DNA of 64,000 nt, taken from the NCBI RefSeq assembly GCF_005938745.2, contig NZ_VCBX02000001.1, positions 3,734,501-3,798,500 on the forward strand, written 5' to 3'. The notes under the pieces were generated by a model. It did no database searches, had not been told where the DNA came from, and saw only the letters and a program-made list of their open reading frames with translations. Below, piece after piece: positions 29,766 to 48,757 of the stretch (position 1 is the first letter of the stretch; each line of letters begins with the position of its first letter). The position numbers were made by a program, and so were the translations under genes. The stretch is from Rhodococcus sp. KBS0724 (lineage in GTDB: Bacteria; Actinomycetota; Actinomycetes; Mycobacteriales; Mycobacteriaceae).

Positions 29766-30374
29766 GTGTCTGGACACATGTCTGGTAAGGCCAACTTCGA
29801 GTCCACCCGCCGGCGCCTGTCGGGGCAACAGGCTGAAACTGTCGATCGCTTGACTACCGCAGCGATTGCCATCCTGCGTACGCATGGGTTCTCCGACCTG
29901 ACAATCCGTATGGTCGCGGGCGAAGCGGGGGTCGCGCCGGCAACGGCGTACACCTACTTCTCGTCCAAGAGTCACCTTGTCGCTGAACTGTTCTGGCGTC
30001 GCCTCGCCACACTCCCCCACGAGGCCAAGACGGACAACGCCCGCGAGACTCAGGTCTGTTCGGTCCAGCGCAGTGTTGCACTCCTGGTGTCCGATGAACC
30101 GGAACTCGCAGCAGCGGTCACGACCGCGATGATGGCCGACGACCCGGACGTCGAACATCTTCGCGCCCGGATCGGGAAGAACATTCGCGAACGCCTGGTC
30201 GAGGCATTGGGACCGGAACATGACGCGGACGTCCTGGAAGCGCTGGAAATCGCCTGGTCAGGCGCATTGGTGCGAGCGGGAATGGGATACGAGTCGTACT
30301 CGCAGATAGCGGATCGCCTCGAGATCACCGCAAAGCTGATCATGGCGGGCCACGACAATCTGAGCAGTACCTAA
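29766..30374 (+). CDS. TetR-family regulator (paralogue of the regulator at 48182)
   Basis: A 202-residue TetR regulator. The DNA-binding domain is AAIAILRTHGFSDLTIRMVAGEAGVAPATAYTYFSSKSHLVAELFW. It aligns closely with the TetR encoded at 48182-48757 over the first 75 residues (FESTRRRLSGQQAETVDRLT against YESTRRRLNGKQADTVARLT). The GTG at 29766 lies next to an 18-bp palindrome that overlaps the first codons; an ATG at 29778 is an alternative. It is convergent with the last mce-run gene, sharing 4 bases. I infer that it regulates itself and perhaps the CYP51-mce run. Confidence 0.88.
   Translation: MSGHMSGKANFESTRRRLSGQQAETVDRLTTAAIAILRTHGFSDLTIRMVAGEAGVAPATAYTYFSSKSHLVAELFWRRLATLPHEAKTDNARETQVCSVQRSVALLVSDEPELAAAVTTAMMADDPDVEHLRARIGKNIRERLVEALGPEHDADVLEALEIAWSGALVRAGMGYESYSQIADRLEITAKLIMAGHDNLSST
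29769..29786. promoter_or_regulatory. TetR operator site A (TCTGGACA-CA-TGTCTGGT)
   Basis: An 18-bp near-palindrome with core GACA-N2-TGTC, covering the first codons of the tetR gene. Essentially the same sequence occurs at 48749-48766 and, with TA as the central pair, at 49950-49967. Overlap with the start codon region suggests tight autorepression. Confidence 0.65.
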
Positions 30375-30838
30375 ATCGGTGTCAGCTCACCCACCAACCA
30401 CCGATCACCGACGCGTACGACGGTGACCTGCACGCGACTCGAACTCGACGCCGGTGCCGGCTGCGCAAAACTGGTGGTGATCTGATCGACGAACATCAGC
30501 AATTCGACGCGATCGAGCGCAACACCGAGCAACCCGACATCGACAACCCGTGCTCTGGTACTGATTCCCTGCGCTTTCGATTGGGGCGCAACGGAAGTCG
30601 CGGCAAACTCGACGAATTCCTCCTTGAAGGTTCCGGTCACTGCGTCAGCTCCGACGGCGAGATCACTGTCGACCGTTTCACTGGTGTACGTGAGCACGTC
30701 CTCCACCAGAGCGGGTGCCTGCGCCATCGCGTCCGCTCTCACCGACTCGAGCGCAGCGGCGTCGCGGTGAATCCAGAGCAGTGCACCCGCGACGATCGCG
30801 AGAACCGCCACGAGCGAGAGGGATATCGCCCGCCTCAC
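30371..30838 (-). CDS. Mce-associated membrane protein (second)
   Basis: A 155-residue protein with one N-terminal membrane helix (SLSLVAVLAIVAGALLW) and an extracytoplasmic domain typical of Mce-associated proteins: residues TYTSETVDSDLAVGADAVTGTFKEEF, then a C-terminal strand VTVVRVGDRWLVGEL. Such proteins stabilise Mce complexes in mycobacteria (Mam/Mas family). Last gene of the long minus-strand run, overlapping the previous gene by 4 bases and the convergent tetR by 4. Confidence 0.85.
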   Translation of the reverse strand: MRRAISLSLVAVLAIVAGALLWIHRDAAALESVRADAMAQAPALVEDVLTYTSETVDSDLAVGADAVTGTFKEEFVEFAATSVAPQSKAQGISTRARVVDVGLLGVALDRVELLMFVDQITTSFAQPAPASSSSRVQVTVVRVGDRWLVGELTPI

Positions 30839-31362
30839 GGTACGAACTCCACACTCGACATCAGGATTTTCCCGTCGACGTCCTCGACACCGATGCGCAG
30901 TCGATACGTGCGCGAGGTCGTCTCTCCCGCAGAATTGGCCACCTGGGCCGAGGCGGCAATCAGCACTACCCCCGTCGACCCGGTCTCGGACGCCAGTGCG
31001 GCAGCATCGATCCTTGCGTCAGAGTTCACCGATGCGGAACGGATCGCGTCGACGAACCCGACCTCGCCAACCAGATCCTCCGCGAACTCGCCCGTGCTGA
31101 GTGCACGCAATCGGTCCACATCCTCGTCGACGGTATCGACGTGAACGTCGATCAACGCCAGGGCTCCCGCCGTCGCCCCGTCCACCAGTTCCTGCCGATG
31201 GGCATCGCGGGCATGATCGGCGCGCATCGACACAGCACCCGTCACCACTACTGCCACCAAACCTGCAACGACCACCGCGACGAGCACGCGGCCGCGTGTA
31301 CTCGCATGCCGCGAAACATCTTCGGTCGTCAGGGATTCGGTGTCGTCAACAACTGCTGCCAC
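30835..31362 (-). CDS. Mce-associated membrane protein (first)
   Basis: A 175-residue paralogue of the downstream gene: cytoplasmic N-terminus of about 25 residues, membrane helix RVLVAVVVAGLVAVVVTG, then the same domain (LRALSTGEFAEDLVGEVGF, ending RTYRLRIGVEDVDGKILMSSVEFV). The GTG start at 31362 has GGAAAGGG upstream although it lies 34 bases inside mceF. Likely an accessory subunit of the Mce1-type complex encoded upstream. Confidence 0.85.
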   Translation of the reverse strand: MAAVVDDTESLTTEDVSRHASTRGRVLVAVVVAGLVAVVVTGAVSMRADHARDAHRQELVDGATAGALALIDVHVDTVDEDVDRLRALSTGEFAEDLVGEVGFVDAIRSASVNSDARIDAAALASETGSTGVVLIAASAQVANSAGETTSRTYRLRIGVEDVDGKILMSSVEFVP

Positions 31363-32627
31363 GAATTACCCTTTCCGATATCGGTGTGGCCGTACACAAT
31401 CCCGTCCGGCCCGGTATACAGCTCGTCGGGAGCATTGGTTCCCGAAGCCACATACGGTTCCGGGCTCCGGCACGCCACCGGGTCCGGTGCCCGCTTGCCG
31501 GGAACTTCCATACACGGAATGTTCCGCGAACCACGCACCGCAAAAACCGAATCCGCCGGTACCTTGCAGAACAAGTCGGCCGGAGTGTCCGGAACGCTCG
31601 TCTCAGTCGGGTCACGGCGTTGATCTGCCGGTAGGTATCCGGTGGAGCAGGCCGCCGGGTCTTGAACCTGTAGATGGAAATTGACGTTGGCGGCGCCGTC
31701 GGCCTGTCCGCGTTGCACGACGGTTTCCTGAGCCGCAACAAGCGGCGGCAGTATCACCAGCACCTGTTCGAGTGACGCGTTGTAGGTCAGCGCGACTTGC
31801 CCGGTACTGGTCAGGTTGGCCAGGAGAACCGGCAGGGTGGGCCGTAGATCCTGGAACAAGAGCTCCGCTTCGGTCGCAAATCCCGGTCCCGTCGCGACGA
31901 TGTTGCGTATCGTCTCGTCGGCAATCTCCAACTGCCCACTCACTCGCGCGATGCTCGACGCCCATGACCGGATCTGGTCTCCCGTGACAACTTGGGTCTC
32001 GAGAAGCGGGGCAAGTTGCTGCACGAGAGTTGTCGCGGGAGTGGTGGCGTCGGACAACTGATCGACAAACGATGTAGTCGAATCCAGCAGTCTCGCAAGA
32101 TCTTCACCGCCGTCGGCAAAGGCCGCGGCAGACTCGTCGATGACCGCGCGCAGTTTGCCCTGTGGGACGGAGTCGAGCAATGCCTGTGCCTGATCGAGAA
32201 CGGGTCCGATCTCCTGAGATATCACCGCGGACTCGGCGCCGATCACGTCACCGTCGGCAAGGAACGGGCCGTCCGCGGTAGCCGGCTGCAGATCCACGTA
32301 CTGCTCGCCGATCGCCGATACGCTACGCACGGCCGCCACCAGTTCGGATTTCGGCACGGGAACTGAACTCTGCAAAGATAATTCGGCTTTCACGACATCC
32401 GGGTGGAGCTGCACCGATCGGACTTGACCGATGGTGTCACCGCGGTACGTCACATTCGCATTGCGGTACAGTCCACCGGCATTGGGCAATTCCAGCGTCA
32501 CCGTGTAGCGCCCGATACCCAGCATCGTAGGAACGCGGAGGTACGCGATCGCGGCCACCGTCATGCCGATGACGGCAAGGATCGCGAAGATCACCAACTG
32601 TCGGCGCACAAGCTTGGTGAGGATCAT
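31329..32627 (-). CDS. mceF: Mce family protein MceF
   Basis: Sixth Mce subunit, 432 residues. N-terminal membrane anchor RRQLVIFAILAVIGMTVAAIAYL, then the Mce/MlaD domain (YTVTLELPNAGGLYRNANVTYRGDTIGQV), a helical region with coiled-coil character, and a Pro-rich C-terminus. The ATG at 32627 is chosen for the GGAGGG upstream; it overlaps mceE by 4 bases. Mce proteins form the periplasm-spanning tunnel for lipid uptake. Confidence 0.92.
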   Translation of the reverse strand: MILTKLVRRQLVIFAILAVIGMTVAAIAYLRVPTMLGIGRYTVTLELPNAGGLYRNANVTYRGDTIGQVRSVQLHPDVVKAELSLQSSVPVPKSELVAAVRSVSAIGEQYVDLQPATADGPFLADGDVIGAESAVISQEIGPVLDQAQALLDSVPQGKLRAVIDESAAAFADGGEDLARLLDSTTSFVDQLSDATTPATTLVQQLAPLLETQVVTGDQIRSWASSIARVSGQLEIADETIRNIVATGPGFATEAELLFQDLRPTLPVLLANLTSTGQVALTYNASLEQVLVILPPLVAAQETVVQRGQADGAANVNFHLQVQDPAACSTGYLPADQRRDPTETSVPDTPADLFCKVPADSVFAVRGSRNIPCMEVPGKRAPDPVACRSPEPYVASGTNAPDELYTGPDGIVYGHTDIGKGNSWQQLLTTPNP

Positions 32628-33709
32628 CGTCCGCCCTCCCCTGCATCGACCGCCCCGTTCAGCGGAGCAGTCATAGGATCGACCGGGCCGCCGCCAGTCT
32701 GCGGAGCACCGAACGGGGTGCCGAAACCAAGTCCGGACTGCAATCGGTTGGTAGTGAGATCGATCAGCGCCCACAGATTGGTGTAATCGCCGCGCATCCC
32801 GTCGTCGATGGTGGTCTGAGGGAAGGGAAAGGTGCTCAGGTTGCCGAGGTTGTTGATCAGATCCGGACCTGCCGCGACAACCTGCTGCAACGTCGGCTCG
32901 AGTGCCGCAAGATTTGCGCTCAGATCATCTCGGGTGCGGTTGACCAGGTCGGTGCCGACGTCTCCGAATCGGCCCACGGAATCGAGGGCGGTGGTCAAAG
33001 TTGTGCGCTGATCCTCCAGTTCCGCCAATGCGGGAGCCAGCACGTCGAGCGCCTGCCGCAGTACGTCGCGTTGCGCGTTGATCTCCCCCGCGAACACATC
33101 CAGGTTCTCCATCGTGGTCACCATCGCGACGCGTTGCCGGTCCAGAGTCCCGGTCAATGTGTCCATCTGTGCGAGTAGATCGCGTGCCGATCCGGTGCGT
33201 CCACCGAGAGCATTGTTCAGCTCGGTGGTGATGGTGTGAATCTGCGCGAGTCCACCGCCGTTGAGCACTATCGACAGCGCTGTCAGAGCTTCCTCCGTCG
33301 TCGGGTACACACCGGCCGACGCCAGAGGAATGACCGAACCCTCCCCGAGTGTTCCTTGTGGTTCGACACCGACCGGCGGCGCCAAGGCAACATGCTTGGA
33401 CCCCAGCAAGCTGGTCTGTCCGATCTTGGCCGTGGAGTTGGCCGGCAACACCACCGAACCATCGAGTGACACCGTCACTCGCGCATGCCAATTGTCGGAC
33501 GTGATGGCGCTGATACTGCCAACCGTCACATCATTGACCATCACCGGCGAGTTCGGACTGATCGACGTAACGTCCGGCATCTCGATGACAACGGAAAAGC
33601 TGTCGGCGCCGCGGCCGGCGGCACCGGGCAGCGGCACCGAATTCAGACCGTTCCACGCGCAGCCGGACGCAAGCACGACAACACCGACGCAACAGATCTT
33701 CCGGATCAT
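32624..33709 (-). CDS. mceE: Mce family lipoprotein MceE
   Basis: Lipoprotein subunit (LprK-like) of the Mce complex, 361 residues. Signal peptide CCVGVVVLASGC with lipobox Cys near residue 17. The MlaD-like domain follows (DSFSVVIEMPDVTSISPNSPVMVNDVTVGSISAI) and then a long helical region (LLAQMDTLTGTLDRQRVAMVTTMENLDVFAGEI). Only this subunit of the six has a lipobox, as in other mce operons. The ATG at 33709 overlaps the mceD stop by 4 bases. Confidence 0.93.
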   Translation of the reverse strand: MIRKICCVGVVVLASGCAWNGLNSVPLPGAAGRGADSFSVVIEMPDVTSISPNSPVMVNDVTVGSISAITSDNWHARVTVSLDGSVVLPANSTAKIGQTSLLGSKHVALAPPVGVEPQGTLGEGSVIPLASAGVYPTTEEALTALSIVLNGGGLAQIHTITTELNNALGGRTGSARDLLAQMDTLTGTLDRQRVAMVTTMENLDVFAGEINAQRDVLRQALDVLAPALAELEDQRTTLTTALDSVGRFGDVGTDLVNRTRDDLSANLAALEPTLQQVVAAGPDLINNLGNLSTFPFPQTTIDDGMRGDYTNLWALIDLTTNRLQSGLGFGTPFGAPQTGGGPVDPMTAPLNGAVDAGEGGR

Positions 33710-34926
33710 CGTGTCCCCACCTCCGGCATCAGCAATTGACCCAACCCTGCGGGAACACTCACGCTCGGGAGCGACGGCGCCGGCTTCAAATCCGGTTCGC
33801 TGTATACCAACTGATCCGGCGCCGCACCGAGCGCTCGGGTCGGATTGATGTTCAGATCCGGATAGTTCGCCCTGATGGTGTTCAGGAACGGTCCGAGGTA
33901 CTCGGCGCACAACTGCGAACCCTTCTCGGAGGTTTCGTTTGCCAGTCCCGCGATGGCGCCGCAGATGAAGTCGATGGGGTTGCCGATGTTCTGGAAGGCA
34001 GGCACCCCGACCATCGCTCCTTGAGCCGGGCGGTACACGTTGTAATAGTTCGACAATGCCGTCGGCGCCAGATGCAGAAGCTTTTCGAGCCCGTCACGTT
34101 TATCCACCAGTACCTGGGTGACATCAGCCAAAGTGTTCACCTGCTCAGTGAGTCCGCTCCGATTCTGTTCGACAAATCGGTGCACGTCCCCGATCGCCGC
34201 ATCCAGGTCAACCAAGGCAGGCGCCAACTGTGTCCGGCTGTCCGCCAACAGACCGGTCACCGTGGCCAGCCGTCCCTGGAAGCTCACAATCTGTTCGTTG
34301 CTTGCCGCCAGCGCTGTTGTGAAGGTCTGCAGGCCTCGGATCGTCCCGAACAGATCCCCGCCGCCCTCGTTCAAAGTGCTCATGGCCGCAGACAGTTCCG
34401 CGATCGAACGCCCTAACGCCTCACCGTTCCCAGCCAAGGCGGTACCGGTGGCGTCGAGGAATTCGGCCGCTGACCCTCGGGCCGTGTCGGACGGCCCCAA
34501 TGCCTCTGCCGCCCGGCCCAATTGCTCCTTGATCTGATCCCACTCGACAGGCACAGCGGTTCTGTCGATTCCGATCTCCGCTCCCGGCGCCAAGGCGTGT
34601 CCCCCGTCCTCCGTCAACGCCGGGGTCAGCTGGACGAACCTGGCTGAGACCAATGACTGAGCAACGATCATGGCGCGTGCGTCCGCTGCGACGGGGACCG
34701 ATCGGGCCAGTTCGAGTTCGACCCGCATCTTCTCCCCCTGCGGGGTTATCGAGGTGACCCGGCCGACGTCGACGCCCACGACGCGGACGTCGTCACCGAC
34801 GTAAAGTCCCGTCGTCGATGCAAAATAGGCGGTCACCGAGTAGTACCGAAAGTGTTGTACGACAAAATATCCGGCCACAGCCAGCGCGAGCACGACGGCG
34901 GCACCGACACAACGCTTCACGACCAT
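33706..34926 (-). CDS. mceD: Mce family protein MceD
   Basis: A 406-residue Mce subunit. N-terminal helix VGAAVVLALAVAGYFVV, MlaD-type domain (YYSVTAYFASTTGLYVGDDVRVVGVDVGRVTSI), long helical segment with repeated Leu/Ala heptads (residues about 130-290), then a C-terminal Pro-rich tail ending in LPSVSVPAGLGQLLMPEV. Start and stop share one base with mceC. Part of the hexameric tunnel. Confidence 0.92.
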   Translation of the reverse strand: MVVKRCVGAAVVLALAVAGYFVVQHFRYYSVTAYFASTTGLYVGDDVRVVGVDVGRVTSITPQGEKMRVELELARSVPVAADARAMIVAQSLVSARFVQLTPALTEDGGHALAPGAEIGIDRTAVPVEWDQIKEQLGRAAEALGPSDTARGSAAEFLDATGTALAGNGEALGRSIAELSAAMSTLNEGGGDLFGTIRGLQTFTTALAASNEQIVSFQGRLATVTGLLADSRTQLAPALVDLDAAIGDVHRFVEQNRSGLTEQVNTLADVTQVLVDKRDGLEKLLHLAPTALSNYYNVYRPAQGAMVGVPAFQNIGNPIDFICGAIAGLANETSEKGSQLCAEYLGPFLNTIRANYPDLNINPTRALGAAPDQLVYSEPDLKPAPSLPSVSVPAGLGQLLMPEVGTR

Positions 34927-35948
34927 CAGCGAACCTCCGGTATCGGTAGCGGCGCAGGCGGAAGCCCGACAATCGCGTTGATCAACGGTTGGGTGTACTG
35001 GGCGGGAAGAAGGTTCTGGATGTACGAGTAGTAGAACGGTCCGCTCGCAACGGTGTCGCCGAGCGTTCCCACGTACGTTCCGAGGCCGTCGATGCCCTGG
35101 GCCAGGTTGTCCTTGTTCTTCTGGAGTATCCCCAGCACCGTGTCGAGCTTGCTCAGGACCGGGCCCAGTTGTGCTTCGTTGTCGTGTACCAACCCACTGA
35201 GTTGGATGGAGACCGCCGAGATGTCGGTGATGACGTTGCCCAACGCATCCTGCCTGCGAACCAGTTCACCCAGTAGCGCATCGCCGTCGACCAGAAGCGA
35301 GTTGACCTGCGGTCCGCGTTCCGCGAGGAGGCCGGCAACGTGATTCGCATCTGCGAGTAGAAGCTTCAACGTCTCGTCGCGGCGGTTGATACTGTCCGAA
35401 AGCCGGGCTACCCCGTCGAGCGCGGGCCGCAGGGAAGGCGCGCTGTCCGTCATCACTGCGCCGACCTCGTCCAACGACGCGGATAATTGGTCGAGGTTGA
35501 TGTCCTCGACCGTGGTTGTGAGGTCACCGAGTACATCGGGCAGCGAGTACGCCGATCGGGTGCGCTCGAGTGGTATCTGTCCGCCCACGGGAATCCGGCC
35601 ACTCCCGCCGAGATCGAGCGAGACGGCACGTTTGCCGAGCAGCGACATCGTGGTGATCGCCGCCGACGTGCTCTCACCCAGAGTGATCGAACCGTCGAGC
35701 GTGAAATCAACTCGGGCACGGCCTTTTTCGACAGCAATTCGGTCGACGGTACCGATCTTCACCCCGGCCGCGTTTACCTCGTCACCGGCAGCCACACCAC
35801 TGGCGTCGGTGAATACCGCGCTGTAGCTCACCCCATTTTTCACGAACTGCAGATCCTGATACTGCAATGACGCCAGCACTACCGACGCGGTCATCACCAT
35901 CCCCACGACGCCGACTCGCACTGCCTGCTTCTGCGCCATCTCTCTCAT
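34926..35948 (-). CDS. mceC: Mce family protein MceC
   Basis: A 340-residue Mce subunit. Anchor VRVGVVGMVMTASVVLASL, then LQFVKNGVSYSAVFTDASGVAAGDEVNAAGVKIGTVDRI (MlaD domain), helical section and a Pro-rich end. The ATG at 35948 overlaps the mceB stop as ATGA, which favours it over a GTG at 35960 and an ATG at 35939. It fits the mceA-F order exactly. Confidence 0.91.
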   Translation of the reverse strand: MREMAQKQAVRVGVVGMVMTASVVLASLQYQDLQFVKNGVSYSAVFTDASGVAAGDEVNAAGVKIGTVDRIAVEKGRARVDFTLDGSITLGESTSAAITTMSLLGKRAVSLDLGGSGRIPVGGQIPLERTRSAYSLPDVLGDLTTTVEDINLDQLSASLDEVGAVMTDSAPSLRPALDGVARLSDSINRRDETLKLLLADANHVAGLLAERGPQVNSLLVDGDALLGELVRRQDALGNVITDISAVSIQLSGLVHDNEAQLGPVLSKLDTVLGILQKNKDNLAQGIDGLGTYVGTLGDTVASGPFYYSYIQNLLPAQYTQPLINAIVGLPPAPLPIPEVR

Positions 35949-36967
35949 CGTGGTGCGCACCTTCCGGTCGTCTGGTCGATCAGGTCGACCGTCATCGGCG
36001 CGCCGTCTGCTCCGTCGACTTTCAGCGCGATCCCGCAGAGATAGAAATTGAAGAAGGATCCGTAGGCACCGACTCGAATCAGTTGTCGATAGTTCGACGG
36101 CATCGACGCGAGGATTCGGTCGAGCTCGCCTTGTTGCTCGACCAGTGGGTCCAGGCTCTGGTCGAGTTGCGACACAGTCCCGCTGATGTCGGGTCTGACG
36201 CCCGCCAAGAGATCTGCGAAAGTCTGTGCAGCGGTGTCGATGCTCGTCACCGACGTGCCGATCAGTTCCTTGTCCGACGCGAGTCCGCTGACCAGCTGTT
36301 GCAGATTGTCGAGCGTGTCGGTGAACTGTCCGCCCCGCCCCCGCACTTCACTCAGGACACCGTCAAGATTGTCGATGACCCGGCCGATGAGCACATCACG
36401 ATCGGCGAGTGTGTTGGTGATCGAACCGGTATGTGCAAGCACCGAAGCGACTGTGCCTGACTGGCCTTGAAATACTTCGAGCAGCGACAGCGACAGGGCG
36501 TTGACCTGAGCTGGATCGAGCGCCTGGAACAGCGGTTTGAATCCGCCGAGCAACGCGTCGAGGTCCAGGGCCGGCGCCGTTCGCGTCGTGGGGATGGTCG
36601 CACCCACAGCCAAGGGCTGAGCGGCGCCTGGACTGTCGAGTAATTCGAGATACCGGTTGCCCACGAGGTCCTGATAACGCACGGCCGCCCGGGTCTGCTC
36701 CGTCAGAGTTTCCACCGAATCGACGTTGAACGTCACGTGAGCAAGGTGGTCGTCGCCGAATTCGACGGCACTCACAGTTCCCACGGGCACTCCCGCAATC
36801 CGCACTTTGTCGCCGGATTTCAGCCCGGACACATTGACGAATTGGGCTGCGTAAGTGTGCTGGTCGCCTCCTCGCATCTGCCCGAAGACCAGGACGAGTC
36901 CGGCATTGACCAGCAGCATCACTGCCACGAAGATGCCGAATTTGACGCCGTAGCCGCGCCGCTTCAT
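35945..36967 (-). CDS. mceB: Mce family protein MceB
   Basis: A 340-residue Mce subunit. Anchor VKFGIFVAVMLLVNAGLVLVFG, MlaD domain (HTYAAQFVNVSGLKSGDKVRIAGVPVGTVSAVEF), LVGNRYLELL, a helical section with repeated SIDTAAQTFADLLAG-like segments, and a terminal region NFYLCGIALKVDGADG typical of MceB. It overlaps mceA and mceC by 4 bases each. Confidence 0.92.
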   Translation of the reverse strand: MKRRGYGVKFGIFVAVMLLVNAGLVLVFGQMRGGDQHTYAAQFVNVSGLKSGDKVRIAGVPVGTVSAVEFGDDHLAHVTFNVDSVETLTEQTRAAVRYQDLVGNRYLELLDSPGAAQPLAVGATIPTTRTAPALDLDALLGGFKPLFQALDPAQVNALSLSLLEVFQGQSGTVASVLAHTGSITNTLADRDVLIGRVIDNLDGVLSEVRGRGGQFTDTLDNLQQLVSGLASDKELIGTSVTSIDTAAQTFADLLAGVRPDISGTVSQLDQSLDPLVEQQGELDRILASMPSNYRQLIRVGAYGSFFNFYLCGIALKVDGADGAPMTVDLIDQTTGRCAPR

Positions 36968-38146: not shown

Positions 38147-39007
38147 TTATCCGGACAAGTTGAAGTTGCCGGAACCGCCGTACAGGGCGAGCGACACCAG
38201 AAGGGTCACCGCCACGACGCAGATCAGTGACAGTCGAACTCCCCGTCCGACGGCGGTGCCCACCCCCGATGGCCCGCCTACCGCGCTGTAGCCGTAGTAG
38301 GTGTGAATCAGCATGACCAGCAACGCCATCACCAGAACCTGAACAAAGGACCACGCGACGTCGACCGGATCGAGAAAGGTCGTGAAGTAGTGGTCGTAGA
38401 GCCCGGACGATTGACCGAACAGAACGACCGTGGTGAACCGACCCGCGAGAAACGACCCGACGAGCGCCAACGAGTACAGCGGCAGAATGGCGAGCATCCC
38501 GGCCACGATTCGAGTACTCACCACGTACGGAACAGAACTGATCGCCATCGATTCGAGTGCGTCGATTTCCTCACTGATGCGCATCGCACCGATCTGCGCC
38601 GTCGAACCGGCGCCGATGGTCGCGGACAGCCCGATTCCCGCAATGACCGGCGCGGCGATGCGCACGTTGATGAACGCCGAGAAGAACCCGGTGAGCGCCT
38701 CGACACCGATGTTTCCCAGCGAACTGAATCCCTGAATCGCGATGGTTCCACCCGATGCCAGCGTCAGGAACCCGACAACGGCGACGGTGCCCCCGATCAA
38801 TGCCAACGCACCGGTACCCATGCTGATCTCGGCGACAAGTCGCAAGACCTCTTTCGGGTGTTTGCGCAGCGCCCACGGAATGAACGCAATAGCTCGGACG
38901 AAGAACACCGCTTGCCGTCCGACATCGTCGACGGACCGCGACAGCCGGGCCATCCGTGCTCGGGTCGCCCCGAATTTTCCGAGTTCCGCCAGTGCCACGC
39001 CGCTCAC
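38147..39007 (-). CDS. yrbEB: YrbEB / MlaE-family permease
   Basis: Integral-membrane permease of the Mce system, 286 residues. Conserved MlaE-type features are ALRKHPKEVLRLVAEISMGTGAL, GFFSAFINVRIAAPVIAGIGLSATIGAGSTAQIGAMRISEEIDALESM and the end YYGYSAVGGPSGVGTAVGRGVR. The GTG at 39007 overlaps the yrbEA stop (GTGA) and begins VSGVALAEL. Together with YrbEA it should form the permease dimer. Confidence 0.92.
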   Translation of the reverse strand: MSGVALAELGKFGATRARMARLSRSVDDVGRQAVFFVRAIAFIPWALRKHPKEVLRLVAEISMGTGALALIGGTVAVVGFLTLASGGTIAIQGFSSLGNIGVEALTGFFSAFINVRIAAPVIAGIGLSATIGAGSTAQIGAMRISEEIDALESMAISSVPYVVSTRIVAGMLAILPLYSLALVGSFLAGRFTTVVLFGQSSGLYDHYFTTFLDPVDVAWSFVQVLVMALLVMLIHTYYGYSAVGGPSGVGTAVGRGVRLSLICVVAVTLLVSLALYGGSGNFNLSG

Positions 39008-39777: not shown

Positions 39778-39780
39778 GGT

Positions 39781-41081: not shown

Positions 41082-42719
41082 TTAATCGATGCGGTGAGCC
41101 GGCTCCTGACTGCGTGCGTATTCCTTCGCCCAGCGGTAGTCGGGTTTTCCGCTGGGCGCTCGCACCACCTCGGGCGCAATCCAGAACGCCCGCGGGATCT
41201 TGTAACCGGCAAGCTGGCTGCGAGTGTGTTTCTCGATGGACTCGAAATCCGGAACGACACCCTCGCGCACCCGGACCACGGCCGAGACCCGGCTCCCCCA
41301 TCGTTCGTCCGGTAGCCCGATCACGGTGGCGTCGTAGATATCCGGATGTGCCTTGACGACGGCCTCGACCTCTTCGACAAAAACCTTCTCACCACCGGTG
41401 TTGACCACCATGTTTCCGCGGCCGAGCAGCGTGATGGAGCCGTCGTCCTCGATCCGGGCGCGGTCTCCGGTAACCACGGCTCGGCCGCCGTCCACCGTCC
41501 GGAAGATCTCTGCCGACTTCGCCGGATCCTTGTAGTACCCGAGCGGGACGTTGCCGAGCTTTGCCAGCCACCCCTCGGCGCCGCTGCCTGGCGTCAGAAT
41601 CCGGTTGTCGTCGTCGACAACCACCGTGAACCGGTTGGAGCCCACCCTCGGTCCACCGCGCTGCTTCAACCCTTTGGCTGCGAATCCGATACCGCCGAAG
41701 CCTGTTTCGGAGGAACCCACGGAGTCGGAGATCATCAGATTCGGAAACACCTCGAAGAAAGCGTCCTTCACCGAGCCTGAGAACAGTGCGGCTCCGGAAG
41801 CGAGAACTGCCAGGCTGGACGCATCGGGCTGGAGTTCCCGGTGAGCTTCCACCAAGGGACGCCCCATCGCGTCGCCAGTGATCACCATGACCTGTGGCCG
41901 GTATTCGGCAACAACAGCCCACACATGTGCCGCGTCGAACCGAGGTTCGAAGATCACGGTATTGCCCGAGAACAGTGCATTGAAGGTCGGCATCAACGCC
42001 GACGTATGGATGAGCGGTGGCAGCATGCACCATCGCATAGGTTCTGCCGCTGCTGCGCCGCCACGGGATTGTTGGTACTCGTCGGTGATCGGCTCACCGG
42101 TGTAGAAATCGTAGCCGCCGGCCAGAACTCGCCAGATGTCCTCCTGACGCCACACCACACCCTTGGGCCGCCCCGTCGTTCCGCCGGTGTAGAGGATGTA
42201 CAGGTCATCGCCACTACGCTCGCCGAACGCATCGCTGCCGCCACGTTCCGGAGAGTGCAGCGACAGCGCTTCCTCGTACGCAACCGCACCTGGCACGAGC
42301 GGTTCGGCGCCCGTCGCAAGCTCGTCCGGCACCAGCACCACGTGCTTGACCCCCGGTACTGATTCCAGGGACTCGGCCACGCGCGCCGAGTACCCCCGAT
42401 GGAACACGAGGGCCTCGAGGTCGGCGTTGTCGTAGAGGTACACCAACTCGTCCGTGGTGTACCGATAGTTCACGGTGATCGGAACGGCACGAATCTTGAA
42501 CGACGCGAGCACAGCCACCATCGTCTCGATCGAATTGTGCATCTGGATTCCGATATGAGTTCCGCTCCCGAAACCTACCGACAAGAAGTGATGTGCCAGA
42601 CGGTTGGCACGCTCGTCGAGTTCGCGGTACGTCACTTCCTTTCCCGACACGATCAACGCGCGTCGATCAGGCATCGCGTCGACGGAATGCTCGAACAGGT
42701 CTGCAAAGGTGTAGGCCAT
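41082..42719 (-). CDS. Acyl-CoA synthetase, FadD19-like (steroid side-chain type)
   Basis: A 545-residue AMP-forming ligase. The P-loop LYTGGTTGRPKGVVWR, the motif SVGSSETGFGG, adenosine site VTGDRARIEDDGS and C-terminal SGKPDYRWAKE with catalytic Lys are present. Many stretches match what I recall of M. tuberculosis FadD19 (IPVTVNYRY-like segment, GFGGIGFAAKG, PDYRWAKE). FadD19 activates C24-branched sterol side-chain acids. It lies between an unknown gene and the CYP125-like P450, which would supply the acid, so activation of a P450-oxidised side chain is likely. Confidence 0.88.
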   Translation of the reverse strand: MAYTFADLFEHSVDAMPDRRALIVSGKEVTYRELDERANRLAHHFLSVGFGSGTHIGIQMHNSIETMVAVLASFKIRAVPITVNYRYTTDELVYLYDNADLEALVFHRGYSARVAESLESVPGVKHVVLVPDELATGAEPLVPGAVAYEEALSLHSPERGGSDAFGERSGDDLYILYTGGTTGRPKGVVWRQEDIWRVLAGGYDFYTGEPITDEYQQSRGGAAAAEPMRWCMLPPLIHTSALMPTFNALFSGNTVIFEPRFDAAHVWAVVAEYRPQVMVITGDAMGRPLVEAHRELQPDASSLAVLASGAALFSGSVKDAFFEVFPNLMISDSVGSSETGFGGIGFAAKGLKQRGGPRVGSNRFTVVVDDDNRILTPGSGAEGWLAKLGNVPLGYYKDPAKSAEIFRTVDGGRAVVTGDRARIEDDGSITLLGRGNMVVNTGGEKVFVEEVEAVVKAHPDIYDATVIGLPDERWGSRVSAVVRVREGVVPDFESIEKHTRSQLAGYKIPRAFWIAPEVVRAPSGKPDYRWAKEYARSQEPAHRID

Positions 42720-42745: not shown

Positions 42746-44002
42746 TCAAACTACGAAGAGAGGCAACGGAATTCCACGATCTTCGAAAGTAAATGCTGCG
42801 CCGCTGCTCACTTTGGTGATGGCGACCTCGACACATTCCGGCGCAGCGTCCGCCGTGGTATCGACCGTGACCAGAAGTCCGGCTTCGGAATCCTCGAGTA
42901 CGCGGACTGTGAAATGTGGGTTCACGCCGCGTACCAGTGCCTGTAGCGGATCGAGATGCTCGGCGTCGATCAGAGTGGGCCAACCGCCGTCGGCGTCAAC
43001 CAGGCCACTCCGCGACAGAAAGACTTCGAGACTCTTTCCATCCCAGTGAATTTCACGCTCGACGTACTGCTTCGGATTGAGCAACGGATGCAGCGCCAGG
43101 ACCACCGCCAAGCCTTCCAGATCCTGCGGAAGACCTAATGCGTCGCGGATGCGCTGCGCAGCGACGCCCGCAATTCCGGTGAGTTGTTTGAGCGTAATTT
43201 CTCGCGCCTTGTCGGCACTACTGCGCCGGCGAACCGCGAGCAGAAAACCCAGCGAAAGCAGGTGGTGTTGAAGGCATACTTCCTGCGCAATGCGAACCAG
43301 CGCGGAGTGTGAGAAGTCGGAGAATCGCAGATCCGAGAGCAACGGTCCCGAGTAGTCGGCCGCGCCGTCCTCACTGTCGTCGATCGGACTCAACTCCACC
43401 GATACCGCAGCGCTCCGGCCGATCTGCTCGGTGTGGGACGTCATGACCGGCGGGACATGGCGCGGGTCGATCACCACTGTCCACGCACAGTGCGGGTGCC
43501 TGTCAGCGGGTTTGCGCGGGGGCCGATGGATCGGACGGATCTGCGCATGCGCGTTGGTGGCTATCGCCGTCGCATCGAACGTCGGATCTTCGATGTCATG
43601 ACACATCGTGGTGACAAACTCGTCCCCCAGCGGTTCGACGTCCGTCAGAGCGCCGCAATGGTCGAGCCAGAACTCACCGTGTTGTGGGTCGTCCACGCGG
43701 TAGCGGAAATCCATGAACTGCGGCGGCGCTCCGATGTCGAGTTGCAGTCCCTTGAAAATGGTCACGACGTCGTCGCCCTGATAGCGCAGCGCCTTCTGCA
43801 TCCGGCGGGTGTACCACGGACTGGCGGATTCCCATTCCTCGATCGCAACTTCCGCCATGCCTTCGCGGCCGTACTCCATGATCAGATGCGCCATCCCGGA
43901 TCTGTCGATCAGCTGACCACACAGCAGGAGTTCGGGCACCAACACAGCCAGGTCGCCGCGCGTGAGCGTCTCGAAGGATCCACCGACAGTCACCGGACTC
44001 AC
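42746..44002 (-). CDS. Conserved protein of unknown function in the CYP51-mce run
   Basis: A 418-residue soluble-looking protein that I do not recognise. It has no signal peptide or membrane segment. Noticeable stretches are LLLCGQLIDRSGMAHLIMEYG, EEWESASPWYTRRMQKAL, FWLDHCGALTDVEPLGDEFVTTMCHDIEDPTFDATAIATN, and HPHCAWTVVID, in which His and Cys recur in a way that could bind metal. The GTG at 44002 overlaps the NTF2-like stop (GTGA), preferred over in-frame starts further up. Its place between an NTF2-like protein and a FadD19-like ligase suggests an enzyme acting on the same substrate. Confidence 0.8.
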   Translation of the reverse strand: MSPVTVGGSFETLTRGDLAVLVPELLLCGQLIDRSGMAHLIMEYGREGMAEVAIEEWESASPWYTRRMQKALRYQGDDVVTIFKGLQLDIGAPPQFMDFRYRVDDPQHGEFWLDHCGALTDVEPLGDEFVTTMCHDIEDPTFDATAIATNAHAQIRPIHRPPRKPADRHPHCAWTVVIDPRHVPPVMTSHTEQIGRSAAVSVELSPIDDSEDGAADYSGPLLSDLRFSDFSHSALVRIAQEVCLQHHLLSLGFLLAVRRRSSADKAREITLKQLTGIAGVAAQRIRDALGLPQDLEGLAVVLALHPLLNPKQYVEREIHWDGKSLEVFLSRSGLVDADGGWPTLIDAEHLDPLQALVRGVNPHFTVRVLEDSEAGLLVTVDTTADAAPECVEVAITKVSSGAAFTFEDRGIPLPLFVV

Positions 44003-44550
44003 CACAGCGGAACCGGCGAGGTACCGGCGCGATACCACCCTGGGAGTGGTTCGCCGGAGATCGATCTCTGAATGCGTGCCTGCATCCCCGTGGACAGTGC
44101 GTTGTTCTGGATCATCTCCATGAACAGTGCCGAGACATTTCCGAAGTCGAAGAAGTCACGCTGCCAGGACCATTGGAAGTTTCCGCCGTACCGGAACCAG
44201 CTGCCACCGATGCCGTAGACGGAGTAGTTACTGCCGTCGTCCCGTTTGGCGTCGGAGATCTGTTTCCACAGTCCGATGACGTTGCCACTGCGCTCGTCGA
44301 TCACAAAGTCCTGATAGGGATATTCCCAGCCTTCGAGGCCGTTCATCTCGAGACCCAGCGCGACGGTACGGATCTCTTCTCGACCGACCGCCATGAAGTC
44401 CTGTTTGGGGCCGTAGTTCCAGCCGTAGGTCGCGTCCTCGGTGTACATGTCCGCCAACGGCTTCCAGTCTCCGGCGGCCTCTGCCTTCTTGTTCGCGTCA
44501 ACCCAACGTTGCACCATCTCGTCGAGCTCGGCACGGTCGAATCCGGTCAT
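43999..44550 (-). CDS. NTF2-like / SnoaL-type protein
   Basis: A 183-residue protein of the NTF2-like fold (the fold of ketosteroid isomerase and SnoaL cyclases): ELDEMVQRWVDANKKAEAAGDWKPLADMYTEDATYGWNYGPKQDFMAVGREEI is the usual N-terminal helix plus pocket; FVIDERSGNVIGLWKQI forms the central sheet. It resembles in position and size Rv0762c beside M. tuberculosis cyp51. The ATG at 44550 has GGGAGAGG upstream; in-frame starts at 44574 and 44580 would overlap the ferredoxin gene. Confidence 0.8.
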   Translation of the reverse strand: MTGFDRAELDEMVQRWVDANKKAEAAGDWKPLADMYTEDATYGWNYGPKQDFMAVGREEIRTVALGLEMNGLEGWEYPYQDFVIDERSGNVIGLWKQISDAKRDDGSNYSVYGIGGSWFRYGGNFQWSWQRDFFDFGNVSALFMEMIQNNALSTGMQARIQRSISGEPLPGWYRAGTSPVPLW

Positions 44551-44566: not shown

Positions 44567-44764
<198 letters not shown>

Positions 44765-46177
44765 TCATGCCCCGCTACGTGTATCGGATCGACTGCGCTG
44801 GCCGGTTCGCCGTCGATACCTGACCGAGCACGGTTGCTGCAATTGCACGACCATCTTGCTGTGATCGTTACGGTAGCTTTCAGACGGTTGGGTCATCTCG
44901 AATTCGTAGTCGCGCAGCAGAATCGAGAAGATCGCCTTGAGCTGCATCTGCGCAAACGCCGCACCGACACACCGGTGCCTGCCCGCTCCGAACGGAATCC
45001 ACGTCCACCGGTTGACGATGTCTTCCTGACGTGGATCGATGTAGCGGCCGGGATCGAACTCGTCGGGATTTGGGAAGTCCTCGGGAATGCGATTGGAGAT
45101 CGCCGGCGTCGCCGCCACCAGGTCGCCTTCACGAATCTCGAAACCACCCACCTCGAAGTCGCCGCGCGCCACCCGCAGCAAAATGATCAGCGGCGGGTGC
45201 AGCCGCAGAGTTTCCTTCACCACCGCCTCGAGCACCGGAATCTGGCGCAGTGCATGGAAACTGATGTCGGCGCCGTCGGCATACAAACTGTCGAGTTCCT
45301 CGACTACATCGGCCATGGCGGCAGGATGGCGGAGCAACTCGATCAAGGACCACGCGGCCGTGCCGGATGTCGTGTGATGACCGGCAAACATCATCGAAAT
45401 GAAAATTCCGGTGATCTCGTCCGCGCTGAAGCGCAGCTCACCCTTCTCGTCCTTGACCGAGACCAGGATATCGAGCATGTCCCGGTCGTCCTTGCCGTGA
45501 GGCGGATTCGCAATTCGCCCATCCATGATCTCCTGTACCAGCGCAACCAAAGCGAGTCTGGCTTCGTCGCGTCGGCGAAAGCTCTCGATCGGTGCGTACG
45601 GATCGACGAAAGCGAGAGCGTCTGTGCCCTGTTCGAGTTCGTGATAAAGCTTGGCAAAGCGATCGTCGAGTTCGTCGCGGAACTTCTTTCCGATCAAACA
45701 GGCCGACGACGTGTAGATGGTCAACTCGGCAAAGAAGTCGAGGAGATCAATCTCGCCCTCGTCGCCCCACCCTGCCACCAACGCTTCGACTTCCGTGCCG
45801 ATGGTTGAAGCATGGCCTTTCATCTGCTCGCCGCGCAGTGCAGAATTGTGCAGCATTTCCTTGCGCCGCTCGGGACTGGCGTCGAACACCACCCCCTCAC
45901 CGAAGATCGGTTTCATGAACGGGTACGCGGCTTGCTGATCGAGATCCTCGTCGGTGGAGCGGAAAAAGAACTCGTTTGCCTCAGCGCCGGACAGCAGGAT
46001 CACCGTCCGGTCGGCTAGCTGGAAGGCTCCGACGTCGCCGCACTCACTCCGTACCCGACGCATCAACGCGATCGGATCAGTGCGCAGTTCTTCCAGATGC
46101 CCGTGTTCGAGTTCGCCCCCGGATACCCGCGGGGGTTGCGGCAGTGTGCGCGGGTTCTCCTGTACACCGTGAGTCAT
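44765..46177 (-). CDS. cyp51: Sterol 14-alpha-demethylase, CYP51
   Basis: P450 of 470 residues. It matches M. tuberculosis CYP51 over long stretches: VSGGELEHGHLEELRTDPIALM, YPFMKPIFGEGVVFDASPERRKEMLHNSALRGEQMKGHA, the BC-loop region, I-helix FAGHHTTSGTA, ExxR in VVKETLRLHPPLI, and haem loop FGAGRHRCVGAAFAQMQ. CYP51 removes the 14-alpha-methyl group of sterols in eukaryotes; bacterial substrates are uncertain. The N-terminus is about 15 residues longer than in M. tuberculosis. The ATG at 46177 overlaps the SDR stop by 4 bases. Confidence 0.95.
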   Translation of the reverse strand: MTHGVQENPRTLPQPPRVSGGELEHGHLEELRTDPIALMRRVRSECGDVGAFQLADRTVILLSGAEANEFFFRSTDEDLDQQAAYPFMKPIFGEGVVFDASPERRKEMLHNSALRGEQMKGHASTIGTEVEALVAGWGDEGEIDLLDFFAELTIYTSSACLIGKKFRDELDDRFAKLYHELEQGTDALAFVDPYAPIESFRRRDEARLALVALVQEIMDGRIANPPHGKDDRDMLDILVSVKDEKGELRFSADEITGIFISMMFAGHHTTSGTAAWSLIELLRHPAAMADVVEELDSLYADGADISFHALRQIPVLEAVVKETLRLHPPLIILLRVARGDFEVGGFEIREGDLVAATPAISNRIPEDFPNPDEFDPGRYIDPRQEDIVNRWTWIPFGAGRHRCVGAAFAQMQLKAIFSILLRDYEFEMTQPSESYRNDHSKMVVQLQQPCSVRYRRRTGQRSRSDTRSGA

Positions 46178-46980
46178 GTCGTCTCCTGCGAAGTGTGAGT
46201 GGGACGAGGATTGAGTGGAGCTTCGGGCTGAACCTCCACCAGAACGAGGTGCGCGCCTCGGGGAGCGGTCACGACGGCAACAATGGCGTTCGCAATATCG
46301 GAAGGCCGCAGCATGTAACCGTGCCGCGCAAAACCCCACCTGGCCCACGATTCGCCGACGGGGCCGATGATCTCCGGCGTCGTATCCATGCCCATCCCGG
46401 TCAATGTCGGTCCCGGCCTCACTATCGAGGCTCGAATGCCGGTGCCTTCGAGTTCCATTCGCATCTGACGGCCCATTGCTTCGAGGCCGGCTTTCGACGC
46501 GTCGTATGCACCCATGAGTGGGCGTTGCCGGTCGGCGCAGTCCGATCCGATCAGCACGAAATCACCCCGTTGCCGCTCCCGCATGCCGGGCAGGATTCGG
46601 TGAGCGAGCCGTTGTGCACCCACCAGATGGACTTCGATCTGACGCAGGAACCGTTCGGGTTCCATTTCATCGGCGGCACCGAATTCGAGATCACCGGCAC
46701 CTGACACCACGATTTCCACTGGTCCCATTGTCTTTTCGGCTGCAGTAACACACGCGTCCACCGAGCTGCCGTCAGTGACGTCGAGGAAATGTGCCATGGC
46801 TTCGCCGCCGTTGCTGCGGATCTTCTCGGCAATCGCCTCGCACTCGGATTCCCGCCGCGCCCCAAGAACAACGGGGTGCCCGAGCTCCGCCAGGGCATAG
46901 GCGGCCGCGGTGCCGATTCCTGACGATGCCCCGCTGATCACAGCGGTCCGTCGGGTCGGGTTGGGTTCGAAACGGGGCAT
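46174..46980 (-). CDS. Short-chain dehydrogenase/reductase (Rv0765c-like)
   Basis: A 268-residue classical SDR. NAD(P) motif AVISGASSGIGTAAAYALAELG; substrate site with Ser in LIGSDCADRQRPLMGAYDASKAG and the Tyr-x-x-x-Lys pair (YDASK). GPTLTGMGMDTTPEIIG is in the flexible loop. The ATG at 46980 shares one base with the CYP123 stop. It sits between the two P450 genes as Rv0765c does between cyp51 and cyp123 in M. tuberculosis; likely oxidises or reduces a hydroxyl produced by them. Confidence 0.9.
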   Translation of the reverse strand: MPRFEPNPTRRTAVISGASSGIGTAAAYALAELGHPVVLGARRESECEAIAEKIRSNGGEAMAHFLDVTDGSSVDACVTAAEKTMGPVEIVVSGAGDLEFGAADEMEPERFLRQIEVHLVGAQRLAHRILPGMRERQRGDFVLIGSDCADRQRPLMGAYDASKAGLEAMGRQMRMELEGTGIRASIVRPGPTLTGMGMDTTPEIIGPVGESWARWGFARHGYMLRPSDIANAIVAVVTAPRGAHLVLVEVQPEAPLNPRPTHTSQETT

Positions 46981-48185
46981 CAGCGCACCTGCACCTTCAC
47001 CGGCAGGGCGGCGAAGCCCCGCACATTTGTCGAATGGACTCTTTCGATACCCGCCTCGTCGACCTCGTAATCGCGCACCTGGCGGGCAAATTCGGCAAGG
47101 GCGATCTTCGCTTCGAGCCGCGCCAGGTGGGCACCGAGGCAAAAGTGCACGCCCGCGCCAAAACTGGCCAGCTTGTTGGCTGAATTCCGTCCGAGGCGAA
47201 ACACGTCTGCATCGTCGAAGACTTCCGCATCGCGATTGGCCGAACCGATCAGGAGCAGCATCTTCTCCCCCGCTGGAACGGTAGTGCCGTAGTACTCGAG
47301 ATCGACGGTCGTCGTGCGCGCCACGATCTGACTCGAGGTGTCGTAGCGAAGTGTTTCCTCCACCCACTCCGATGCCAGATCCGGATCACGAAGAACAGCC
47401 GCAATCTCGCTGCGATTGTGCGAACCCCAGTACAGGGCGTTCCCGAGCAGTTTGGTGGTGGTTTCGTTGCCGGCCACGACCATCAAGAACATGAAGCCGA
47501 GAATCTCGGAATCCGACAGTTTGTCTCCGTCGATTTCGGCGTCGAGCAGGGCTGACGTCAAATCACCGGTAGGCGAGCGACGACGCTCTGCAATCATGTC
47601 CTTGTAGTAGCTCATCAGGCTAATCGACGCGTCTACTGCAGCTGGTGGTACGTCGAGGACCCCGTCTTCCCGGTGCACCACCAGATCTGCTTTTCTCCGA
47701 AGCTCCGCCCGGTCCGGTTCCGGAACGCCCATCAACTCGGAAATCACGTCCATCGGCAGCTTGCCGGCCACTTCGGATATCCAGTCAAATTCTCCGGCGT
47801 CAAGTGCCGGGGCCAGGTGCGCCGTGGTGAGTTCGAGTATCCGCGAGTCGAGTTCGGCAACACGACGAGGCGTGAACCCGCGAGACACCAACTGCCGCAG
47901 ACGCATATGCCGCGGATCGTCCATGGCAAGAAAGGACATCACGTAGTGCGCATGAGGCCCGTAGGCAGCCGGGTCGAGCGAAACACCGTTTGCACTGGAG
48001 AGTCGCTTGTTGTCCTTGAACGCATCCAGAACGTCCGAATACCGTGACAACGCCCAGAATCCGACGTCGTCGTTGTGGTAGATCGGGGCTTCGTTTCGCA
48101 GCCGTGTGTAGGTCGGATACGGGTCTTCGTGGAAGTGATAGTCGTACGGATTGAACATCACCGGTTCGATCAATGCTTCGGTCAT
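46980..48185 (-). CDS. Cytochrome P450, CYP123-like
   Basis: A 401-residue P450 equivalent in position and length to CYP123 (Rv0766c). I-helix VVAGNETTTKLLGN, ExxR in EETLRYDTSSQIVARTT, PERF-like AGEKMLLLIGSANRDAEVF and haem loop FGAGVHFCLGAHLARLE with Cys at about residue 349. The substrate is unknown in mycobacteria. The ATG at 48185 overlaps the tetR stop as ATGA, so the P450 follows its regulator in the same transcript. Confidence 0.9.
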   Translation of the reverse strand: MTEALIEPVMFNPYDYHFHEDPYPTYTRLRNEAPIYHNDDVGFWALSRYSDVLDAFKDNKRLSSANGVSLDPAAYGPHAHYVMSFLAMDDPRHMRLRQLVSRGFTPRRVAELDSRILELTTAHLAPALDAGEFDWISEVAGKLPMDVISELMGVPEPDRAELRRKADLVVHREDGVLDVPPAAVDASISLMSYYKDMIAERRRSPTGDLTSALLDAEIDGDKLSDSEILGFMFLMVVAGNETTTKLLGNALYWGSHNRSEIAAVLRDPDLASEWVEETLRYDTSSQIVARTTTVDLEYYGTTVPAGEKMLLLIGSANRDAEVFDDADVFRLGRNSANKLASFGAGVHFCLGAHLARLEAKIALAEFARQVRDYEVDEAGIERVHSTNVRGFAALPVKVQVR

Positions 48186-48757
48186 GGATGCTCCAAGATC
48201 AGTCGTGCGGAAGCCTCCAGGCGTCCGGCAATGTACTCGTAAGTCCCATATCCCATTCCGGCCCGCAAAAGCGCTCCGGCATACAGCATTTCAATGGCCT
48301 CGATCCGATGTGGATTCACTACCGGATCCATCGCCGCGACCAACCTGCTGTGAATCTCGAATCCGATCCGATCGCGAAGATGCTCTACCTCGGGATCGGT
48401 TCCCAGCAAAGCGTTGGTCACGGCGGCTGACACCTGCGGTTCGTCGGCGAGCAGCAATGCAATGTTTCGCAGTACGGCAAGCACTCGGGCGGTGGAGTCC
48501 GTAGCGGTACCGTCCGGGCTCGGGAACGCCCGCAACCGGCGCCAGAAGACCTCCGCAACAAGATGTTCCTTCGACGAGAAGTAGGTGTAGGCGGTTGCCG
48601 CTCCCACCCCGGCTTCGGCAGCGACGGCGCGCACGGTCAAACCTGAATATTCATGCTCACGGAGCACGACGACGGCGGCTTCGGTAAGCCGGGCGACGGT
48701 GTCTGCCTGCTTCCCGTTGAGGCGTCGGCGAGTCGATTCGTAACCATGACTGGACAC
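48182..48757 (-). CDS. TetR-family regulator (Rv0767c-like)
   Basis: A 191-residue TetR regulator with DNA-binding domain AVVVLREHEYSGLTVRAVAAEAGVGAATAYTYFSSKEHLVAEVFW. It is a close paralogue of the TetR at 29766. The GTG at 48757 is chosen because it puts the start in the same place relative to the palindrome as in the paralogue; an in-frame ATG at 48805 would bury the operator in the coding region. It heads the 19-gene minus-strand run and matches Rv0767c in the cyp51 locus. It probably represses the run and itself. Confidence 0.88.
   Translation of the reverse strand: MSSHGYESTRRRLNGKQADTVARLTEAAVVVLREHEYSGLTVRAVAAEAGVGAATAYTYFSSKEHLVAEVFWRRLRAFPSPDGTATDSTARVLAVLRNIALLLADEPQVSAAVTNALLGTDPEVEHLRDRIGFEIHSRLVAAMDPVVNPHRIEAIEMLYAGALLRAGMGYGTYEYIAGRLEASARLILEHP

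Follow-up and report, generated by a model that had tools for sequence, protein, structure and literature searches.

The 64,000-nucleotide window analyzed here, the whole stretch of Rhodococcus sp. KBS0724 DNA from position 3,734,501 to 3,798,500 of contig NZ_VCBX02000001.1, contains a run of 19 minus-strand genes (48757-30371) in which the cytochrome P450 gene cyp51 is joined to a Mce4-type importer operon. With a probability of roughly two in three, we read this run as a KstR-independent operon for the use of external 14α-methyl sterols as food. A preliminary description of this DNA had proposed uptake and oxidation of one lipid, possibly a 14-methyl sterol or a triterpenoid. The 14-methyl sterol is backed by the Mce4-type importer, a Bsr-type reductase, an operator shared across the locus and the repeated occurrence of cyp51 near sterol genes in other genera, whereas nothing was found in support of a triterpenoid or hopanoid. 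The arrangement suggests that CYP51 in some Rhodococcus aids the uptake and breakdown of methyl-bearing plant or fungal sterols, not sterol synthesis. The relevance of the M. tuberculosis enzyme is called unclear in PMC6469627. In the present run CYP51 is grouped with the enzyme that comes next in 14-demethylation, with a ligase and a side-chain hydroxylase, and with a sterol-type importer. Because the genus includes strains amenable to laboratory work, this grouping opens to genetic test the question why actinobacteria without sterol synthesis keep CYP51, and the answer would tell which sterols such soil bacteria recycle.

Gene content of the run

The run starts with a TetR regulator, a CYP123-type P450, an SDR oxidoreductase, CYP51, a ferredoxin, an NTF2-like protein, an uncharacterised protein (u415), an acyl-CoA ligase and a CYP125, and continues with YrbEA, YrbEB, MceA to MceF and two small Mce-associated proteins. 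The families matched are TetR_N, three P450s, SDR, ferredoxin, AMP-binding ligase, two MlaE permeases and six MCE proteins. By the start codons taken, the greatest overlap between adjacent genes is 34 bases, and the widest gap, that between the ligase and cyp125 genes, is 47 bases. The coordinates bear out the initial count of 19 minus-strand genes with no gap over 47 bases; the accompanying gene list had the families right but omitted u415, which is needed to reach 19. The source genome measures 7.25 Mb, and its nearest named locus by CYP51 is that of Rhodococcus globerulus (97%). The spacing from tetR to mceB is also tight in 11 named relatives (L019-L027, L029 and L030; estimated gaps of at most 78 bases). 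A scan for sigma-70-type promoters, a weak guide for actinobacteria, returned 2 sites against 4.3 in shuffled sequence. The P450 at 46980..48185 is called CYP123-type by gene order and lies beside the SDR and CYP51 genes in relatives too; the SDR (46174..46980) matches NF005854 with 435 bits (cut-off 260).

CYP51 (44765..46177), the predicted sterol 14α-demethylase, aligns with M. tuberculosis CYP51 Rv0764c in a PDB search with 799 bits over 445 residues. It is the sole CYP51 of the genome, the next P450 scoring 112 bits. The alignment with solved CYP51s contains ETLR and FGAGRHRC, which we take to be the ExxR and heme-cysteine motifs of CYP51. The helix-B' signature (Y, F, M and F positions) is kept in 109/109 aligned CYP51 loci, a few genomes being counted twice. 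The Phe of this helix, placed by alignment to the M. tuberculosis enzyme, is presumably the published one. According to PMC11089504, helix-B' Phe goes with C4-monomethylated sterols, for instance obtusifoliol, in other organisms, and PMC6469627 gives lanosterol, dihydrolanosterol and obtusifoliol as substrates of M. tuberculosis CYP51. On the basis of this Phe and this substrate range, our first guess for the imported substrate is a plant-derived 14-methyl sterol, preferably of a C4-monomethyl type such as obtusifoliol. The CYP51 of R. triatomae BKS 15-14 (L028), which is 89% identical and whose locus matches the run in gene order as far as CYP125, demethylates lanosterol (Ke 2017, as cited in PMC11279926). 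Two CYP51 genes were seen in one genome (G214:C1:2195775 and 6329939), and Nocardia pseudovaccinii has two CYP51 loci (L060 and L089).

The two genes that follow cyp51 appear to serve the same reaction sequence. The ferredoxin (44567..44761) matches PF13459, PF13370 and PF06902, and the ferredoxin adjoining CYP51 in M. tuberculosis supports CYP51 activity (PMC9868604). In the NTF2-like protein (43999..44550), residues Y36, Y42, Y77, Y79, D132 and D135 match Y37, Y43, Y78, Y80, D133 and D136 of Methylococcus capsulatus Bsr, with a constant offset of -1 at the six positions as read from published numbering. All six pocket residues are invariant in 121/121 sequences, that is, the window protein and the 120 best of 2738 relatives. 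As described in PMC13277303 (2026) for proteins from a methanotroph, a myxobacterium and M. tuberculosis, Bsr is often encoded near CYP51 and converts the CYP51 product to an 8(14)-sterol. The same source reports that the M. tuberculosis Bsr, when tested in E. coli, acted on the product of CYP51. It also refers to feeding experiments in which a Mycobacterium converted lanosterol to a C19 steroid whose double bond is at 8(14). Since six of the six Bsr pocket residues are present, the NTF2-like gene looks like a Bsr-type 8,14-sterol reductase, with which the CYP51-ferredoxin-reductase chain looks complete.

In sterol-making methanotrophs, CYP51, ferredoxin and Bsr genes are likewise often co-localised and Bsr has the same pocket residues (PMC13277303). 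However, the ferredoxin is fused to CYP51 in the methanotrophs and adjacent to it in the window, and the present genome has importer and side-chain genes in place of a cyclase domain, which argues for breakdown rather than synthesis. The C-terminal domain of squalene and oxidosqualene cyclases (PF13243) had no match in the genome, the same search being positive in 2/14 control genomes. A single marginal piece of squalene epoxidase (19.7 bits, 69 model positions, E 1e-3) was rejected, as E. coli was also positive. Sterol or hopanoid synthesis was rejected for lack of the PF13243 domain, and the substrate of CYP51 is therefore expected to come from outside.

For u415 (42746..44002) the start at 44002, giving 418 aa, is preferred because of its GTGA overlap and because the listed homologues are mostly 412-423 aa long. 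No Pfam family was matched. Relatives number 6690, and any names carried by the 120 of them that were listed are hypothetical or uncharacterized. The AlphaFold model is of fair quality (predicted local distance difference test, 80.5), and a fold search with it gave no convincing match. Invariant His/Cys pairs occur at residues 115-116 and 134-135; our guess is that they may form a metal or catalytic site. The gene is found at the CYP51 locus in Rhodococcus, in Prescottella and its kin, in pieces of the locus in Nocardia, and in genus g5. In one genome of genus g2 (L154; G166:C32, 2.2-4.6 kb) the CYP51 locus is flanked on its Rv0770 side by a u415 relative (58%) and a CYP125 (56%).

The third P450 (39781..41034) has M. 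tuberculosis CYP125 as its best PDB match, with 579 bits over the full length compared to 271 for CYP124, so that its first label, CYP125-like, holds. It is 63-64% identical to two other CYP125s of the genome, and the CYP125s of CYP51-linked Rhodococcus loci form a clade of their own (support 1.0). The third CYP125 of the genome (G000:C1:5023530-5024765, 63% identical) lies in a 20-kb stretch (L108) whose sole KstR-type box is about 8 kb off. The acyl-CoA ligase (41082..42719; NF005863, 724 bits, cut-off 543), which we take to be FadD17/FadD19-like, shares 48% identity with a ligase encoded at 0.94-1.04 Mb (L102).

Twelve MlaE-type permease matches in the genome make up six pairs. The YrbEA (39004..39777) and YrbEB (38147..39007) of the window both score above the PF02405 cut-off. 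Their identity to the pair at 1.03 Mb is 72%, compared to no more than 49% for any of the remaining four pairs. All six Mce proteins score above the TIGR00996 cut-off: MceA (36964..38133; PDB matches 8fed_A, a Mce family protein, and 7ai2_A, Mce4A), MceB (35945..36967; 51% to the operon at 1.03 Mb), MceC (34926..35960), MceD (33706..34926), MceE (32624..33709) and MceF (31329..32627). The small Mce-associated proteins 1 (30835..31362) and 2 (30371..30838) had no match in family searches; they are 31-37% identical to same-place genes of other Mce4-type operons and 31-36% to those of L202-L204, respectively. When 43 YrbEA sequences were placed in a tree, those of the window, its CYP51-linked relatives and Speluncibacter made up a single clade within the Mce4-type group (support 0.96-0.97, several other, deeper nodes being weak). 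By sequence and tree, the importer is of the Mce4 type, and its cargo would be a sterol. Because its YrbEA and CYP125 fall in clades of their own, the module for uptake and side-chain oxidation in the run is, on sequence grounds, a private copy.

Operator and regulon

KstR-type boxes lie upstream of the other Mce4-type operon (1.03 Mb) and of a CYP125 gene 34 kb before that operon. We took [AT]nnAACnnGTTnn[AT] as the form of the KstR box, and no such box occurs in the window. A search with TAGAACnnGTTCTA allowing up to 3 mismatches gave 13 matches, all of them with exactly 3, where 8.2 would be expected. Membership of the run in the KstR regulon was rejected, since the window has no box of the strict form and the run promoters have none. 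The KstR-regulated cholesterol cluster with mce4 and cyp125, whose own copy in this genome lies at C1:0.99-1.04 Mb, has Mce4-type YrbE and Mce proteins, a CYP125 and a similar ligase in common with the window. However, the window run has another TetR and no KstR box, is joined to CYP51, ferredoxin and Bsr, and the shared proteins are 37-72% identical.

The TetR at the head of the run (48182..48757; PF00440) is Rv0767c-type by gene order; its best NCBIfam match is KstR, with 41 bits for a cut-off of 280. A palindromic pattern, CYRGACAYRTGTCYRG, has exactly three perfect matches in the whole 7.25-Mb genome, all of them at this locus. The first (48749..48766) covers the tetR start codon at the promoter of the 19-gene run. 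The second (49950..49967, score 25.0) lies between two divergent genes, sdrU, encoding a mycofactocin-type SDR (48861..49928, minus strand; TIGR03971, 338 bits, cut-off 300), and the gene for an aldehyde dehydrogenase of the Rv0768 family (49985..51451, plus strand; TIGR04284, 905 bits, cut-off 775). The third (29769..29786, score 26.3) is at the start of a second tetR (29766..30374, plus strand; PF00440), which is convergent with the run, probably starts near 29779 and encodes a protein 56% identical to the first TetR. With up to two mismatches, the reversed control gave 88 matches per strand versus 44 for the pattern, counts being pooled over mismatch numbers, so that only the exact sites carry weight. 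In one relative examined (L206), a second tetR with an operator is absent from the end of the mce run. A minus-strand frame at 29250-30221 was rejected as a downstream gene, being antisense to the second tetR.

The palindrome (consensus TCCAGACAYGTGTCCAGA) was found upstream of tetR in 46/47 promoters compared, the window included. The position weight matrix and pattern were built from tetR sites, including that of the window, so the tetR figures are partly circular; the aldehyde dehydrogenase and cyp51 sites lie outside the training set. At a score of at least 12, there are 141 matches in 80 named CYP51 loci (1.58 Mb) versus 3 in shuffled sequence. Such an operator precedes the aldehyde dehydrogenase gene in 32/34 cases and the lone cyp51 of Nocardia loci in 35/43, compared to 0/37 for cyp51 inside a run; four loci (L019, L020, L025 and L049), in which gene overlap misled the sorting, were moved by hand from the lone to the in-run class. 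The cyp123 piece has its own operator in four Nocardia loci (L056, L066, L071 and L085). No operator was found at the Mce4-type operons away from cyp51 in L201-L204, which are therefore not shown to be regulon members.

In Mycobacterium, 'motif X', which is like the predicted Rv0767c site, was described at 14 operons, 12 of them induced more than 3-fold by phytosterol (PMC6593523, 2019), and Rv0767c sites are rich in GAC and GTC (PMC10312376), like the window palindrome. From the place of the TetR, the gene set and this richness, the palindrome is apparently the Rv0767c/'motif X' operator. The Rv0762c-Rv0771 locus, as presented in PMC6593523, has the same kinds of genes in the same order, the same kind of palindrome and divergent Rv0768-type genes; unlike it, the window run continues with u415, the ligase, CYP125 and a whole Mce operon. 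The phytosterol response of the regulon and Bsr are already in print. The joining of the CYP51 regulon to a private Mce4-type importer was not found in the literature searched.

Linkage of cyp51 to sterol genes in other genomes

The 80 named CYP51 loci are the best of 546 candidates, and 14 of them end within 9 kb downstream. Full fusion of CYP51, CYP125 and Mce genes occurs in 11/80, and in Speluncibacter the Mce genes follow without CYP125 between. The private importer inside the CYP51 run is thus restricted to few loci, 12/80. Outside Nocardia, Bsr and u415 accompany CYP51 in 37/37 named loci and a ligase (at least 50% identical) in 29. Ferredoxin lies beside CYP51 in all 37, counting L034, L036 and L042, where the position rule missed it and reading of the locus showed it to be present.

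Closeness of cyp51 to sterol genes is widespread across genera. In genus g2, which is Mycobacterium by inference, a Mce4-type yrbEA lies 26-69 kb from cyp51 on the same contig in 30/34 CYP51-bearing genomes, as counted from YrbEA matches down to E 1.6e-104 only. Among g2 genomes of one to four contigs, yrbEA is near cyp51 in 16/16 against 1.45 expected by random placement, these genomes being related. The contrast first drawn with M. tuberculosis, in which cyp51 is not next to an mce operon, is therefore less sharp than it seemed; no mce gene was found in the 20-kb stretches of 14 inferred-Mycobacterium CYP51 loci. In R. jostii, R. opacus, R. koreensis and R. tibetensis, a CYP125 gene that has KstR-type boxes follows the ligase gene at a distance of about 3 kb. 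In Nocardia, CYP125 is convergent to cyp51 in 15/43 loci and runs in the same direction in one more. Within family f1, a YrbEA relative (E<=1e-80) was found in 45/45 CYP51-positive versus 4/10 CYP51-negative genomes (counts made by hand; Fisher 7e-6, kinship ignored). An MceA-like gene (40-41%) adjoins cyp51 in three Nocardia loci (L066, L091 and L097), in which a full mce operon is not in view.

Proposed route, alternatives and neighbouring genes

In the route that we propose, the TetR at the head of the run would repress the run, the divergent Rv0768-type genes and the second tetR through their common palindrome, and would be released by a sterol or a sterol derivative. The Mce4-type importer would bring the sterol in, CYP125 would oxidize the end of its side chain and the ligase would form the CoA ester. 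CYP51 with its ferredoxin would remove the 14-methyl group to give a Δ8,14 sterol, which Bsr would convert to the 8(14)-ene, both being activities of relatives. CYP123, the SDRs, the aldehyde dehydrogenase and a neighbouring flavin adenine dinucleotide (FAD) enzyme may oxidize further positions, and the sterol nucleus would then enter ordinary steroid catabolism. Candidate substrates are lanosterol or, preferably, C4-monomethyl plant types such as obtusifoliol. A fuller version, which we hold tentatively and somewhat short of an even bet, is a complete and separately regulated methyl-sterol route: the cargo of the Mce4-type importer would have shifted from cholesterol to 14α-methyl (and 4-methyl) sterols, with its own CYP125 and ligase, with CYP51, ferredoxin and Bsr for the nucleus, and with u415 acting either as a binding protein or as a new enzyme of sterols. 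If this were true, bacterial CYP51 would have a catabolic role throughout Mycobacteriaceae.

Several observations weigh against the use of methyl sterols as food. M. tuberculosis CYP51 is non-essential and its role is called unclear (PMC6469627). PMC6593523 states that the studies it cites saw no induction of most regulon genes in R. jostii RHA1 or M. smegmatis, and its authors propose that the regulon is aimed at the side chains of plant sterols. No Mce4-type yrbEA lies within 10 kb in 68/80 CYP51 loci, 14 of which are truncated at the end of a contig, and this makes the importer an optional partner of CYP51; R. triatomae has none in the 1.0 kb left after cyp125. The preliminary description had proposed a synteny search in Rhodococcus and Nocardia, and the fusion was seen in the 11 named loci but not in these 68. 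At a score of 12, 8/43 lone cyp51 loci have no operator, and operators precede cyp123 in 6/40, yrbEA in 0/12, the ligase gene in 0/34 and u415 in 0/44 cases; for the last three, absence is as expected of genes transcribed from another promoter, and is no proof of it. The laxer KstR form GAACnnGTTC has 5 matches in the window, one of them inside mceC at 35256 and none at any promoter of the run. No C4-demethylation or Mce ATPase gene was recognised in the run, no search having been aimed at them. Finally, kinship of the genomes inflates every count.

The strongest of the alternatives, although in our estimate an unlikely one, is that the operon is a second KstR-independent route for ordinary plant sterols or cholesterol (4-desmethyl, C24-branched), in which CYP51 and Bsr clear minor 14-methyl contaminants. 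CYP125, the ligase and the Mce4-type importer do provide side-chain and uptake functions, and phytosterol induces the matching regulon, for which side-chain oxidation is favoured by the authors (PMC6593523). However, it is CYP51, ferredoxin, Bsr and u415 that are constant outside Nocardia, whereas CYP125 and Mce come and go, and the genome already owns a KstR-boxed CYP125 and mce operon.

We consider it improbable that the regulon instead modifies or detoxifies sterol-like or triterpenoid compounds, such as plant saponins or fungal or host triterpenoids. Detoxification systems, too, typically have a local TetR whose own gene bears operators, and u415 and CYP123 may have substrates of this kind. 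Nevertheless, a CoA ligase and an importer of its own point to use rather than disposal, the CYP51 and Bsr of relatives act on sterols in published assays, as far as these are described in the sources cited above, and the cell's own hopanoids are unlikely substrates since no cyclase domain was found. Least probable of all, although 68 loci lack a nearby yrbEA, is an accident of rearrangement with the mce part as a separate transcript for other cargo: the tight spacing is kept in 11 named loci, the yrbEA genes of these and of Speluncibacter form one clade, and other genera have cyp51 close to mce4 or CYP125 in arrangements that differ from this one.

Beyond the aldehyde dehydrogenase gene, the plus strand continues with an SDR gene that is Rv0769-type by position (51492..52259; NF005853, 441 bits, cut-off 303) and a 3-hydroxyisobutyrate-dehydrogenase-like gene that is Rv0770-type by position (52028..53182; PF03446), the true start of which is later. 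The next plus-strand gene (53531..55123; NF005512, 948 bits, cut-off 812) encodes an FAD-binding dehydrogenase, a distant relative of 3-ketosteroid dehydrogenases that scores 144 bits against the 3-oxosteroid 1-dehydrogenase model (cut-off 788); that it belongs to the regulon is a guess. Beside the other end of the run are a LigB/DOPA-dioxygenase-like gene (28272-29054, minus strand) and a weakly matched MarR-type regulator gene (29215-29724, plus strand), neither with an operator. A long nonribosomal peptide synthetase frame with condensation, adenylation, carrier and thioesterase domains (56913-63998, minus strand) reaches the end of the window.

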